Shown here: positions 761-5,878 of the stretch, one piece after another
Numbering within the stretch: the first letter of the stretch is position 1
Layout: each line of letters opens with the position of its first letter
Translations under genes and position numbers: made by a program
The notes under the pieces: generated by a model
Seen by the model: the letters and a program-made list of their open reading frames with translations, nothing else
Told to the model about the DNA's origin: nothing
The model's database searches: none
NCBI GenBank assembly: GCA_021324855.1
Contig: JAJPIG010000024.1
Span: forward strand, 1 to 64,000
DNA: 64,000 nucleotides
From: Pseudomonadota bacterium
Lineage (GTDB): Bacteria > Desulfobacterota > Binatia > Binatales > Binataceae
Direction of reading: 5' to 3'

Positions 761-1048
761 TGCACCAACGATCCTTCCTCCCGATAACGCGCGCGTTCGC
801 CTCGACTAATCATCATATGACAGTTCCGAGCGCTTTTCGGCCCCTGGACCTGCCCACCTCGCTCCGGGTCGATCTCACTGCCGGTCCATATAACAGGCTT
901 GAAATCGAACTTCGATGCACTCGTCAAGACCCGTAGACCTTGATTTCGACCAGGATTCTTCGGCAGATTCCCGTCAATCGGCGATTGTTGTAAAGCTGTG
1001 CATCCAATGAGATTCTGGCGGCGGTCCGTTCGGAGGAAGAGAGCGACG

Positions 1049-3289
1049 ATGATGAGGAATTCGAGACTGAAGCTCGTCACCTTGATCGCAATTCTTGCGG
1101 CCGGAGCGGTAATCTTGGCCGCGAATGACCGTTCGAGGATTCGGGAGAGCGGCCTGTCGGCAATTGCTTTCGACGCTCGGCCGGCGGACGCAGCCGAGCC
1201 CGCCGGCAAGCTGGCGAAAGAAGAAGAGGAGAATGCGACTTCGCGCGATCTCGCGTCGCCGGCCAACGCCAAGGTCAACAGCCTTGAGACGTCCGACGAA
1301 TTCCGCCGCATCCTCGACAAGATTCCGGGCGGCGATGTCTCGCCTTGCGCGGCCGTTCAGGATCCCTATCCGGAGTTCAACGGTATCGCGATCGATCCGC
1401 AAAACGGCATCGCGGTGCTCAGCGACACCAACTTAAAGAGCGCGCTGATTTACGATCTGAAGGCCGGTGCGCCACCCGACCAGTCCGGCATCACGGCGCC
1501 CAAAGGTTGGATCATCGGGCCCGCGACGTTTCTCTCGTTCGCAGCGGGGGTGGCGGTCGACCCGGTCCGGCATGAGCTTTACACGACTGAGAACGACATC
1601 GGCGACGACATCGCGGCGTTTCCGTACAATGCCAACGGCAACTACAAGGCGCGCGCGCTGGCGGTGCCGCACGGGTCCTACGGCATCGCGATCAGTCAGA
1701 AGTATCATCAGATGGCGACCGCTATTCAGCACGATGCAGAGATCATTTTTTATCGGCTGCAAGCGCAGGGCGCGGAGCCGCCGGTGCGTTCGATTCGTGG
1801 GATGAAGACCAAGCTTGCCGATCCGCACGGCGTCGCCTGGGACGAGAAGCACGGCGAAATTTTCGTGACCAACTATGGGAACTGGTCGCGCGGCTACTGG
1901 GATCCCGATTACACCGGCGGCGGCCATTACTATCCGCCATCAATCGAGGTCTTCAAGGATGACGCGAAAGGCGACGTCGCACCGATGCGCGTGATTCAAG
2001 GGCCGAAGACGCAGCTCGACTGGCCGACCGGCATCTCCGTCGATGTACTGCATGACGAGATCGCGATTGCCAACGAGCCCGCCAACGAGGTCCTGATTTT
2101 CCGCCGCAGCGATAATGGCGACGTCGCGCCGATTCGCGTGCTCGGCGGACCCCAGACACACATCATCCATCCGATGGGTGTGGCATTCGATCCGATCAAC
2201 AACGAACTCTGGGTCGCGAATTTCGGGCACGAGGCTGAAATCTTCACGCGCGATGCGTCTGGCAACGTTGCGCCCAAACGCATCGTGCGCAACGCGCCCG
2301 CCGGAGTGCCGGCCGCCGGGTTCGGCAATCCGACCGCAATGGCTTACGATTCGAAACGCGACGAATTGCTGGTGCCCAACTGAGTAAGCGATCCGCGTAT
2401 TGCGGCATTTGCCAGGATGGCAAGTGGAGACGCCGAACCAACCAGGATCATTGAAGGTCAAAAGACCAAGCTGACGCGGGTCGCGCATGGCATTGTGTAC
2501 GATCCAAAGCATGACGAGATAATCGCGACCGAGCCGCTCGCAAGCTCGATTGCGTTCTTTCGCGGCGATGCCGCCGGCGAGGCGGTGCCCGAGCGGATCA
2601 TTCAGGGGCCGAAGACGCAGCTTCATCAGCCGTTTCAGGTGACCGTCGACAACGAGCACAACGAACTTTGGGTGGCGGATTTCAGAACCGACATGCTGCT
2701 TGCCTATCCGCTCGACGCCAGGGGCGACGTCGCGCCGATTCGCGCGATCGGCGGCAGCAAGACCGGGATGTGGATGCCGATCGGCATCGCGGTCGATCCG
2801 CAGCGCAACCTGGTCGTGGCGGCGAGCTTCATGGGCACGCACACCTGGCATCACAACGGCGGGCTTTTCATCTTCGATCGGACGGCGAACGGCAACGTGC
2901 CGCCAAAGGCGGTGATCGCCGGGCCGAGCACCGGAATCATCGGGCTCTGGCACGCGCAGGTGTATGACGGGAAAATTTTCACAACCGCAATCAATATCAA
3001 GTATCTGCCGCCCTATGATCAGGGTGGTTATGCGCCGAAGCGTGGATGCGAAGGGCCGCCGCTGCCATGGGTCGGCCCGCTGGGATTTGTCGGCGTCTGG
3101 AACATCACGGACAACGGCGACGTGCCGCCGCGTGAGATCATCCGCGGTCCCGGCACCGACCTGATCCATCCGGGCGGCCTCGTGCTCGATCCCGCACACG
3201 GCGAGATATTCGCCAGCGACAGCGTTCACAACGGCTATTTCGGGTTCCTGCTGCCGACGCTTTTCCCGGCCGGCGGGGCGGCTCAATAG
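1049..3289 (+). CDS. Exported NHL-type beta-propeller protein with in-frame TGA at codon 445 (candidate selenoprotein)
   Basis: Read through a single TGA at 2381-2383, this is one 746-residue protein. It has a basic N-terminus and hydrophobic segment (signal peptide, about residues 3-26) followed by a long array of about 50-residue blades. Each blade carries a core like 'GVAFDPINNELWVANF' and a linker like 'GDVAPIRVLGG'. The array continues in the same frame on both sides of the TGA: the interrupted blade reads ELLVPN-TGA-VSDPRIAAFAR and keeps its normal length. No frameshift is needed. A hairpin with SECIS-like geometry starts 23 bases after the TGA. The family is usually extracytoplasmic and binds ligands or partners; its function here is unknown. 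The start at 1049 is chosen for GGAGGA at 1032-1037. An ordinary reading would give two genes (to 2383, and from ATG 2417), but the second has no usable ribosome binding site. Alternatives are a nonsense mutation or a base-call error. Confidence 0.75.
2406..2426 (+). promoter_or_regulatory. SECIS-like hairpin downstream of the beta-propeller TGA
   Basis: CATTTGCC (2406-2413) pairs with GGCAAGTG (2419-2426) over eight base pairs including one U-G wobble. The loop is AGGAU, with G in its second position. The loop begins 30 bases after the TGA. Bacterial SECIS elements are short stems with a small loop carrying a G in the first two positions, usually about 16-37 bases after the UGA, so the geometry fits. 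A second, smaller hairpin (CCGC/GCGG, 2393-2405, loop GUAUU) is closer to the TGA, at 13 bases. Neither has been folded computationally. Confidence 0.5.
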
Positions 3290-3299
3290 CGGGTGACAA

Positions 3300-4172
3300 A
3301 TGAGTCTCAATTACAAGGGGCGCACGATCCGCGGGATCGACATCCATACCCACATTCCACATCCCGGTGGTCCCAAAAGCGATCCGCGCGCCGAGCAGAA
3401 GGAGCGATACTTCCGCAACACGCTGCAGGGCCTGACGATCGAGCAGATGGCCGAGCTGTATCGGAAGCTAGAGATGGTCGCCGTAGTCTTTGACGTTGAC
3501 ATGGAGACCATTACCGACGATCCGTTCGTCGGCAATGATTATATCGCAGAGGTCCAGCGGCGCTTTCCCGATGTCTTCATCGGATGGGCGAGCGTCGATC
3601 CGCACAAGGGCCGCGCCGCGGTCCGCGAACTTGAGCGCGCGGTTACCAAGCTTGGCCTGAGCGGTCTCAAGACGCATCCGACCTGCCAGGCATTTTACCC
3701 GAACGACGAGATTTACTATCCGCTCTGGGAAAAGGCGCAGGAACTTGGCATCCCGGTGCTGTTTCACTCCGGCCATACCGGAATCGGCGCCGGGATGCCC
3801 GGCGGCACCGGACTAAAGCTCAAGTACAGCCGGCCGATTCCCTACCTCGACGATGTCGCAGCCGATTTTCCGAATCTGACCATCATCGGGGCGCATCCAT
3901 CGTGGCCGTGGCAGGAAGAGATGTTGTCGGTCGCGATGCACAAAGGTAACGTTTTCATCGATCTCTCCGGCTGGTCGCCCAAATACTTCGCGCCATCGCT
4001 CATCCAGTACTCGAACACGCTGCTGCAGGACAAGGTGATGTACGGCTCCGACTTTCCGGTGATCAGTCCTGAACGATGGTTGAAGGACTTCGAGGCCGCG
4101 CCGTTTCGCGATGAGGTGCGCCAGAAAATCTTGCTCGACAACGCCGCGCGCCTGCTCAAACTGGCCACGTAG
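3300..4172 (+). CDS. Amidohydrolase family protein (amidohydrolase-2 / ACMSD-like TIM barrel)
   Basis: This 290-residue protein has the metal-ligand order of the amidohydrolase-2 family: GIDIHTHI (HxH) at the N-terminus, a central LFHSGHTG histidine, IIGAHPSWPW with another histidine, and MYGSDFPV with the aspartate after the last strand. Such enzymes are decarboxylases or hydrolases of aromatic or lactone-like acids using one metal ion. The gene starts 10 bases after the beta-propeller stop and is followed 64 bases later by a flavin monooxygenase, so the three are likely one operon. The luciferase-like neighbour suggests a role in breaking down a ring or side chain after oxygenation, but the substrate cannot be read from sequence. 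Confidence 0.9.
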   Translation: MSLNYKGRTIRGIDIHTHIPHPGGPKSDPRAEQKERYFRNTLQGLTIEQMAELYRKLEMVAVVFDVDMETITDDPFVGNDYIAEVQRRFPDVFIGWASVDPHKGRAAVRELERAVTKLGLSGLKTHPTCQAFYPNDEIYYPLWEKAQELGIPVLFHSGHTGIGAGMPGGTGLKLKYSRPIPYLDDVAADFPNLTIIGAHPSWPWQEEMLSVAMHKGNVFIDLSGWSPKYFAPSLIQYSNTLLQDKVMYGSDFPVISPERWLKDFEAAPFRDEVRQKILLDNAARLLKLAT

Positions 4173-4236: not shown

Positions 4237-5499
4237 ATGCTTAAAGTAATTCTTCAACTCTACCCGGTGATTCCCGCCGCCAGCGAGGCCGAGCGCGAAG
4301 CGCTCCGTCCGATCGGACGCAATCGCGAACGCTACCAGGAAACCCTCAGCGGATGGCACGACATCATCCGCGCCGCCGACGAACTCGGCTTGTGGGGCGT
4401 CGCCACCATCGAGCATCATTTTTGGTCTGAGGGTTACGAATGCGGCCCGAATCCGGGCGTGCTCAACGCGTACTGGGCTGCGATCACGCGCAACGTCCGG
4501 GTGGGACAGCTCGGCTACGTGATGAGCACGCAGAATCCGATCCGCGTCGCCGAGGAGACTGCGATTCTCGACCATCTGACGAAGGGGCGATGCTTCGTTG
4601 GGTTCGCGCGTGGTTACCAGTCGCGATGGACCAATGTGGTCGGGCAGCACCTGGGGACGCGTGCGACCACCTCGCCGTCGGCCGGCCGGCTGGATTCGAC
4701 GCACATGTTCGGCGATCCCACCGGCAAGCCCGAGCGTACCGCAGATGATGACCTCAACCGGCGGATTTTCGAGGAAGAGGTCGAGATCGTTCTCAAGGCC
4801 TGGACGCAGGAGAGCTTTTCGCATAACGGGTCGGCCTGGCAGATTCCGTATCCCTATGATCGCGGCGTTGATGATTGGCCGCTCGCGAAATTCGGCACCA
4901 CCGGACGCTTCGGCGCGCCCGGCGAAGTGGACGAGGAAGGCAATACGCGTCGCGTGAGTGTGGTGCCCGCGCCGTACACCAAGCCGCACCCGCCCGTGCT
5001 GGTCGCGACCAGCGGCTCGCCGGAGAGCGCCGAGTACTGCGCGCGCCAGGGCTTCATCCCGCTCTACTTCAACTCGCTCGCGACGGCGCTCAAGCTCAGC
5101 GCGGCGCACGATCGAGCGCTGGCCGCGTCAGGCCGTGAGGTCAAACCAGGACGGAACCAGGCGATCGTGCGGATTCCGCATATCGGCAAAACACGCGCCG
5201 AGGCGGAGGATTCCGTGATGCGCTACGACTCCGATATCTTCCGCAACTTTTACGCTGCGATGGGACAGCATCACGTGCCCGCCGAGAATGTGGTCGAAGC
5301 CGTCACGCGCAACGGGATGTGGACCGTCGGTACCGTCGACGATGTGCGCAAGCATCTGGTCGAGGAGTGGAAGCAGTTGCCTTGCGAGTACCTCACCATC
5401 ATCTATCATTACGCGCAGATGCCGAAGGATCGCGTGCTCGATAATCTCGCCAGGTTCATGCGCGAGGTGAAGCCGGCGCTCGATGAGCTCGTGGCGTAA
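4237..5499 (+). CDS. LLM class flavin-dependent oxidoreductase (luciferase-like monooxygenase)
   Basis: The 420-residue product has the bacterial luciferase-like TIM barrel. It shows an N-terminal strand with an ATIEHHFW segment, the VGQLGYVMSTQNPIRVAEE region, LDHLTKGRCFVGFARGYQ (the usual '(L/S)xGRxxxGxGxG' stretch), and a C-terminal GTVDDVRKHL motif typical of the family. Members use reduced FMN or F420 to insert oxygen into, or oxidise, organic substrates, with flavin reduction supplied elsewhere. No flavin reductase is adjacent. It sits between the amidohydrolase and the DsrE-like gene, whose GTG start is only 16 bases beyond its stop, which points to a shared transcript. The cofactor (FMN or F420) is undetermined. 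Confidence 0.9.
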   Translation: MLKVILQLYPVIPAASEAEREALRPIGRNRERYQETLSGWHDIIRAADELGLWGVATIEHHFWSEGYECGPNPGVLNAYWAAITRNVRVGQLGYVMSTQNPIRVAEETAILDHLTKGRCFVGFARGYQSRWTNVVGQHLGTRATTSPSAGRLDSTHMFGDPTGKPERTADDDLNRRIFEEEVEIVLKAWTQESFSHNGSAWQIPYPYDRGVDDWPLAKFGTTGRFGAPGEVDEEGNTRRVSVVPAPYTKPHPPVLVATSGSPESAEYCARQGFIPLYFNSLATALKLSAAHDRALAASGREVKPGRNQAIVRIPHIGKTRAEAEDSVMRYDSDIFRNFYAAMGQHHVPAENVVEAVTRNGMWTVGTVDDVRKHLVEEWKQLPCEYLTIIYHYAQMPKDRVLDNLARFMREVKPALDELVA

Positions 5500-5515
5500 A
5501 TGTGCAGGCCGTCCG

Positions 5516-5878
5516 GTGAGTAAAATACTGATCAAGAGCGTGTGGGGATCCGACGATCCTACCAAGGCCGGTTTCGCTTTTGTTCACGCCAATGCCTTTG
5601 TCGAGGCCGGCCACGAGGTGCAGATTTTCCTGCTCGGCGAGGCGGTTTCGCTGATGCGTACGGTCGTTGCAGAGTCGGTCGTGCCGGTGGGATGGCCGCC
5701 GCTCGCGCAAACGATGACGCAGACCATCGGGCACGGCATCCCGATTCACCTCTGAGCCACCTGCTCAAGGGCCCGTGGGCTCTCCGAAAGCGATTTGGAA
5801 GGGAAGAACGCAGCGTTCGGGACGGTTGAGACGCTGGTCAAGCTCGTGGAATGGGCTGATAAGGTTTTGAGCGAATAG
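5516..5878 (+). CDS. DsrE-like family selenoprotein: in-frame TGA at codon 80 (U-x-x-C motif)
   Basis: A 120-residue DsrE/DsrF/YchN-like protein is obtained by reading the TGA at 5753-5755 as an amino acid. Before it the frame gives KILIKSVWGSDDPTKAG (typical strand 1 and loop), then AGHEVQIFLLGEAVSLM. After it the same frame gives ATCSRARGLSESDLEG and the family's C-terminal helix LVKLVEWADKVLSE, ending at TAG. In this family the loop after the fourth strand normally reads C-x-x-C-x-x-A-R-G. The TGA replaces the first Cys, making U80-A-T-C83. No frameshift is needed and the full length is normal for the family. A SECIS-like stem-loop follows at 5768. Start: GTG at 5516, giving the usual short N-terminus; ATG 5483 would overlap the monooxygenase gene. 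DsrE-type proteins carry sulfur or act in thiol redox chemistry, and selenocysteine would make it a redox enzyme. Sequencing error is the main alternative. Confidence 0.85.
5768..5783 (+). promoter_or_regulatory. SECIS-like hairpin in the DsrE-like gene
   Basis: AGGGCC (5768-5773) pairs with GGCTCT (5778-5783): six pairs with one G-U. The loop is CGUG, with G in the second position. The loop begins after an 18-base spacer from the TGA at 5753-5755, inside the 16-37 base range expected for bacterial SECIS elements. The hairpin lies within coding sequence, as bacterial SECIS elements must. Confidence 0.6.

Follow-up and report, generated by a model that had tools for sequence, protein, structure and literature searches.

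On its forward strand, the window (the whole 64,000-nucleotide stretch analyzed here) carries a 746-codon reading frame with a single in-frame TGA at codon 445 and a terminal TAG (Table 1). The initial annotation had described this frame, with one TGA and a normal end, as a candidate new selenoprotein gene, and both features are found. GC3 is 0.764 on either side of the TGA in the frame 1049-3289, and the codon-frequency correlation across the TGA is 0.85, compared with 0.24 and 0.07 in the two other frames, in line with the earlier statement that codon use does not change past the TGA. A second gene starting after the TGA would lack a ribosome binding site, as was also claimed: the earliest ATG of the second half, at 2417, lies inside the loop of a hairpin and has no properly spaced Shine-Dalgarno sequence. 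Third downstream in the putative operon is a gene for a DsrE-like protein, whose first bases overlap the 3' end of the luciferase-like gene. DsrE-like proteins are a known selenoprotein family (Table 1 of PMC13188914).

Table 1. Features at the double-propeller locus (positions in the window)
Feature	Position	Strand	Basis or remark
Purine-rich stretch GGAGGAAGAGAG before ATG 1049, likely ribosome binding site	1032..1043	+	Sequence; putative function
CDS, predicted double-propeller selenoprotein	1049..3289	+	TGA codon 445 read as Sec; stop TAG 3287-3289
Hydrophobic N-terminal helix (residues 6-26), putative signal peptide or anchor	1064..1126	+	Helix in model; export suggested by sequence
Strand, residues 96-104, seems to close propeller B	1334..1360	+	Aligned ranges
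Propeller A, residues 107-417, six blades (predicted)	1367..2299	+	Model, structure alignment; blade limits read by eye
Propeller B, residues 418-734, six blades (predicted)	2300..3250	+	Model, structure alignment; blade limits read by eye
Predicted Sec codon TGA (codon 445), motif LVPN-U-V..PRI..FAR	2381..2383	+	TGA in 79/79 members
Lower small hairpin CCGCG..TGCGG, 5 pairs	2393..2405	+	Two-sided changes in 3/5 pairs; 89.7% of cells paired
SECIS-like hairpin, 8 pairs, loop AGGAT 2414-2418	2406..2426	+	Covariation, RNAalifold, resampling
Amidohydro_2 family gene, putative operon partner	3300..4172	+	10 bases downstream; spacing suggests operon
Luciferase-like monooxygenase gene, putative operon partner	4237..5499	+	Pfam
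DsrE-like gene, TGA 5753-5755 in UxxC (HLUATC), likely selenoprotein	5483..5878	+	In-frame TGA

The codon aligned with codon 445 was read by tblastn over all loci, with a minimum of 33% identity and 300 columns, thresholds that remote Cys forms would escape. This gave 80 distinct sequence windows, 77 with TGA and three that were dropped as repeat-shifted matches (L018, L156 at 2078, and L007 at 910); two members added later, both with TGA, bring the count to 79. One locus that was read by hand (L043) and two missed by the motif pattern (L129 and L140) all have TGA, and one copy that stops short of codon 445 (L103, in genome G336) was left out of the count. TGA is present at codon 445 in all 79 distinct members, comprising the window gene and 78 relatives, from 28 genomes, and the genomes that bear the family are titled Deltaproteobacteria or Acidobacteria where they are named. 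The initial annotation had looked for Cys or TGA at this codon in orthologues, and all 78 relatives read have TGA. No Cys, no other residue, and no other stop codon (TAA or TAG) occurs at the site among the 79 members; the random amino acid that would have spoken against the proposal did not appear, and the earlier remark that no family Cys is known at the site still holds within this set.

The protein sequence around the codon is strongly conserved. The longest invariant run in a 15-row alignment, in which identity to the window protein falls to 37%, is V442 P443 N444 U445 V446; over a set of 38 members, N444 and U445 never vary, with one or two exceptions at 442, 443, and 446, and propeller sequence flanks the TGA on both sides in the members. 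A lone TGA in a long frame resembles, at first sight, a pseudogene or a sequencing error. This explanation is refuted because the homologues share the TGA: the identical codon stands in 79 distinct sequences from 28 genomes, the protein is conserved on both sides of it, and an error, which the initial annotation had considered, would not recur in 79 sequences. The probability that either accounts for the frame is negligible.

A Cys form was not found in overlapping draws of 396 and 299 genomes on the Acidobacteria side and of 395, 148, and 96 genomes on the side of the window genome, in a search that scored few candidates per genome; other phyla were covered solely by a scan for close relatives. 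The Sec-only state would hold for the genomes sampled, which come mainly from two phyla. In 44 alignments with distant NHL proteins, the site falls on a gap (12), A (9), S (7), T (5), G (4), L (2), C (2), or H, R, or K (one each). The two C were considered as Cys forms and rejected, as these proteins are 22-35% identical and their registers shift by repeats. The nearest relative without the TGA (in G066, E 1e-76) lacks the N.[VI]..P motif in the examined part, L180. At the 3' end of some members (the L009 copies, and L140 at 2738), a terminal TGA after FPEIF or a similar sequence seems to be a real stop, and both meanings of TGA thus occur within one gene there.

The eight-pair hairpin with an AGGAU loop and a 30-base spacer, on which the initial annotation relied, is present at 2406-2426: bases 2406-2413 pair with 2419-2426, and the loop lies 30 bases from the TGA. 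The bacterial SECIS rules set out in PMC13188914 describe a stem of 4-16 bp, a loop of 3-9 bases with G in the first two loop positions, a distance of 16-37 bases between UGA and loop, and an energy of at most -7.5 kcal/mol. The loop, stem, and spacing of the hairpin agree with these rules, and its energy in the window is -9.6 kcal/mol, within the -7.5 limit. The bare 21-base hairpin with its five-base loop reaches -7.5 kcal/mol in 53 of the 79 members, and all 79 reach it when the optimal fold of the surrounding 29-base segment is taken. Every one of the 79 members has G at loop position 2 and G or U after it, and the closing N1-N2 pair of the published bacterial SECIS model is found in 67 of 77.

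Pairing was compared with shuffles on 37 members. The two hairpins together have 93.3% of their cells paired against 87.5% in shuffles and a covariation score of 0.280 against 0.190, a value that none of 500 shuffles reaches, and sliding the hairpin partners as a control brings pairing down to at most 53%. Further pair types are not above the shuffles (232 of 500 as high), and pair 27-45 is broken in 11 of the 37 members. The RNAalifold consensus recovers the main hairpin unaided, and the small hairpin at 2393-2405 is absent from it. The main hairpin has 301 of its 320 cells paired in another 40 members, and 599 of 632 over all 79. The clearest single signal is a compensating change that is synonymous on both sides: at the third positions of codons 454 and 458, the bases form T-A in 32 members and C-G in 47, matched in 79 of 79, and these codons encode Phe with Ala throughout, save one Tyr with Ala. 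On a 77-row tree this pairing state switches four times, each time on both sides, and a sign test on these four independent double switches yields p 0.125, its minimum for so few events and still above 0.05. When all 351 pairings of invariant codons are compared over 38 members, 454/458 ranks first with a normalized mutual information of 1.0, the next pair having 0.57. The codons between them are nearly fixed as well, Ala455 being GCC in 36 of 38 members and Arg456 being AGG in 33 of 38.

The initial annotation also proposed folding the sequence after the TGA, and the outcome is divided between the family and the window. In 65 of 79 members, at least five of the eight pairs are contained in the optimal fold of the 54 bases that follow the TGA. 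For the window itself the fold is unexceptional, in that 30.5% of 200 synonymous resamples are as stable as its hairpin and 83% are as stable as its 54 bases after the TGA. Over the family, 73 of 77 members have a hairpin segment stabler than the resampled mean (mean z -1.5), with 21 of 77 below 5% singly. The support for the hairpin comes from the family and not from the single fold of the window, and these comparisons argue that the hairpin is under selection at the RNA level. An Rfam scan of 1000-3400 matched no Rfam family. Two adjacent members with diverged hairpins were observed at one locus (L155, G897:C22:28500-33500); in one of them, the lower hairpin is changed, Tyr replaces Phe454, and the upper stem is kept.

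The TGA might be a true stop, leaving either two genes or propeller A as the sole product. Under translation table 11 the reading frame stops at 2383, with an ATG available at 2417, propeller A seems complete ahead of the TGA, and possible starts occupy that place in 43 of 79 members (ATG in 9, TTG in 31, and GTG in 3). However, CTG, TCG, or GAG replaces the ATG in 36 of 79, so neither the ATG nor any other start is conserved, and the stop with a separate downstream start foreseen in the initial annotation as a contrary outcome is not what the family has. The second half retains its repeat pattern and frame in the members read, the TGA never became a sense codon, TAA, or TAG in 79 sequences, and the selection on the hairpin also stands against termination. 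Judging from the fit ranges given below, propeller B seems to need the N-terminal strand at residues 96-104. Termination at codon 445 is extremely unlikely on this evidence.

The window genome (G000) has a tRNA-Sec with anticodon TCA (71.7 bits), selA (579 bits), and selB (370 bits). In a panel of 15 genome handles, which correspond to 14 genomes (G096 is the same as G001) and include 10 that bear the family, 14 pass the selB cut-off (G102 fails) and 14 pass the selA cut-off (G099 has no match). Outside this panel, selA is over the cut-off in 14 of 18 family-bearing genomes and in 16 of the 20 named family-free genomes of the 299-genome draw, showing no enrichment with the family. Four family-bearing genomes are under the cut-off, one with a partial match (G903) and three with none or a weak one (G928, G990, and G328); the genomes without a selA match are drafts and may be incomplete. 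Because selA is as common without the family as with it, its presence is permissive, not diagnostic. One genome (G012) has two tRNA-Sec genes about 4 kb apart (L172 on contig C298, 1045-1140 and 5229-5324) and also two selB matches over the cut-off, on separate contigs.

A suppressor tRNA that inserts Cys, Trp, or some other residue at the UGA would also give a full-length product. The members are found in just the deltaproteobacteria and Acidobacteria, and Mukai et al. reportedly proposed in 2017 that deltaproteobacteria have an opal suppressor tRNA-Cys and that Acidobacteria have odd tRNAs. We nevertheless consider suppression very unlikely: the genome has a canonical tRNA-Sec (TCA) with selA and selB, TGA also terminates several members (e.g., L009, L036, L040, and L044), and the loop agrees in 79 of 79 members with the SECIS rules of PMC13188914, a feature that a suppressor does not need. 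With TGA in 79 of 79 members, a covarying SECIS-like hairpin, and tRNA-Sec, selA, and selB in the genome, the candidate selenoprotein of the initial annotation has gained considerably, and we are highly confident, from sequence comparison, that the UGA at codon 445 is decoded as Sec and that the gene encodes a selenoprotein. Decoding would be carried out by tRNA-Sec and SelB and directed by the hairpin located 23-43 bases past the UGA.

The window genome contains a paralogue at 73% identity that also has the TGA. Among 96 related genomes searched, the window genome included, 27 give a match of some kind at E 0.001, and near full-length relatives occur in four (G000, G001, G002, and G012), with 16 copies and a TGA in each. 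A scan of a species-genome collection for close relatives gave seven loci, six titled Acidobacteria and the seventh, titled Deltaproteobacteria, the same as a G001 copy. In the 396-genome draw, taken from the phylum of one scan locus, the family is found in seven genomes, with 10 copies that reach the site and have one TGA, and the remaining copy (G336) stops before the site. The 299-genome draw, from one class of that phylum, has the family in 18 genomes, with one TGA in every listed row except an N-terminal piece. Nine of 148 genomes of the window's class match, five with the family (13 rows, all with TGA) and four with shorter NHL proteins without a TGA, and in the 395-genome draw from the window's phylum G000 alone matches at E 1e-40. 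Since 2, 3, or 7 candidates were scored per genome depending on the search, copy numbers are lower bounds. None of 19 stretches that matched the pattern in an IMG/VR scan encodes a relative, and a plasmid scan gave two records with remote partial matches.

The family has multiplied in some genomes, and a 3.9-Mb draft (G002) holds at least 12 copies (L036, L038-L046, L051, and L190), two of them adjacent on contig C35. The 16 copies from the window's own taxonomic family (f1) form one branch within a 27-row branch that also contains gp2-type Acidobacteria copies (support 100*, midpoint-rooted quick tree). Because the f1 copies nest in this branch, the tree fits a transfer between phyla followed by duplication. 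A copy from another family of the window's class (L179, G1162:C219) has a motif like the Acidobacteria type, and a second, separate transfer is a possible origin for it.

The AlphaFold2 model of the protein has a mean pLDDT of 84.3, and twelve blades can be read from its strand list. VIA-align superimposes the model on six-bladed NHL domains with Z about 29-32 over about 265 residues, one fit having Z 31.8 and rmsd 2.3 over 265 residues. Some fits cover residues 107-417 and others run from near 96 to near 733, and the limits of propeller A (107-417) and propeller B (418-734) are assigned because of these ranges. The model suggests two tandem six-bladed NHL propellers, with B closed by the N-terminal strand 96-104. 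Pfam NHL (PF01436) scores 51 bits on the window protein against a cut-off of 20 and matches 15 of 15 members at E up to 0.1. The exported NHL-type beta-propeller of the initial annotation stands as to the NHL fold, extended to two six-bladed propellers in the model, and its export is likely, because the N-terminus (residues 6-26) forms a hydrophobic helix. The full product would be two six-bladed NHL propellers in tandem, probably exported.

In the model, Asn444 is the last residue of strand 2 in the first blade of propeller B and is directly followed by Sec445. Several other blades, though not all, also have Asn or Asp at this strand end (D126, N275, N342, N391, and D724, each in 14 or 15 of 15 members). 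Sec would follow the invariant Asn444 on a face where loops lining the central pocket are expected, and the invariant polar residues N427, R437, N444, R477, and H480 are close to it in sequence. No Cys column extends over the family in the 15-row alignment, the best being columns 100 and 667 with Cys in 6 of 15 each; this makes it unlikely that the family relies on a thioredoxin-like redox pair or shares a selenenyl-sulfide partner. The likeliest role for Sec, proposed with low confidence, would be that of a pocket metal ligand or catalytic nucleophile, with the invariant Arg477 and His480 as possible helpers. One can also speculate, at some risk, that Sec is obligatory for a pocket chemistry of propeller B beyond that of a thiol and, since propeller A seems complete just before the UGA, that selenium supply sets the ratio of one- to two-propeller product.

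Thirty hand-picked neighbors of other copies were classified by Pfam, nine of them without any family. They include a LigXa-like Rieske oxygenase, a LigB-type protein, UbiD, amidohydrolases, and methyltransferases; carriers of the sodium:sulfate symporter, amino-acid permease, and MFS types; a TonB-type outer membrane protein and DUF1302/DUF1329; and housekeeping proteins (valyl-tRNA synthetase, quinolinate phosphoribosyltransferase, aconitase, a DNA polymerase IV type, CutA, and MoeA). No neighbor is constant across the family copies examined. On account of these neighbor genes, we tentatively suggest an envelope enzyme that acts on aromatic or lipophilic compounds and whose paralogues would serve different substrates.

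The 2026 list of prokaryotic selenoproteins comprises 119 families or subfamilies (PMC13188914), and Table 1 of that paper, judged by names and domain identifiers, contains no propeller or NHL family, in agreement with the initial annotation, which knew of no NHL propeller among selenoprotein families. By the names in this inventory, the family would be the first beta-propeller selenoprotein family. The open-licence literature without preprints yielded no bacterial selenoprotein of propeller or NHL type, with a groundwater survey (ref. 66 of PMC13188914) that may mention one. No selenoprotein model is present among 13 NCBIfam families matched by 15 members at E up to 1, and the window protein is far below the cut-offs of its own three NCBIfam matches. 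As far as the sources searched show, the sequences would represent an undescribed selenoprotein family with a fold new to selenoproteins. Annotation with the standard bacterial code would be expected to cut each such gene at the UGA.

Selenium or sulfur chemistry is not foreign to the fold: selenium-binding protein, or methanethiol oxidase (MtoX), is a beta-propeller tied to it, and MtoX is not known to be a Sec-encoding family. The MtoX NCBIfam model touches one of 15 members (E 0.2), with no significant match. To propeller enzymes of the PAL, SMP-30, and paraoxonase types, the similarity observed is one of fold. PAL (peptidyl-alpha-hydroxyglycine alpha-amidating lyase, 3fvz) shares the six-bladed propeller (Z 28.7, rmsd 2.9, 279 residues), whereas its sequence gives no match above threshold (E 0.82), and SGL scores 18.9 bits on the window protein against a cut-off of 26.3, with higher scores in some other members. 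The likely DsrE-like selenoprotein encoded third downstream in the window belongs to a known family of different fold.

The family resembles the bacterial SECIS-dependent selenoproteins of PMC13188914 in its in-frame UGA, loop G, spacing of 16-37 bases, and accompanying selA, selB, and tRNA-Sec. It also departs from them. Most characterized selenoproteins are thioredoxin-like with a redox motif, according to the same paper, whereas this is a propeller family without a family-wide Cys column. According to PMC12013277, Cys homologues now seem to exist for every known selenoprotein, and finders may filter out candidates that have none, whereas no Cys homologue was found for the propeller family; because of this filtering, further Sec families without Cys counterparts may be overlooked by present finders. 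In fold, the closest counterparts are the NHL propellers of TRIM2/3/71, Brat, and Thin, which share the six-bladed architecture at Z about 29-32 over about 265 residues. These eukaryotic NHL domains bind RNA or protein in the cell, whereas the family reported here would combine two propellers and Sec in one, probably exported, bacterial protein.
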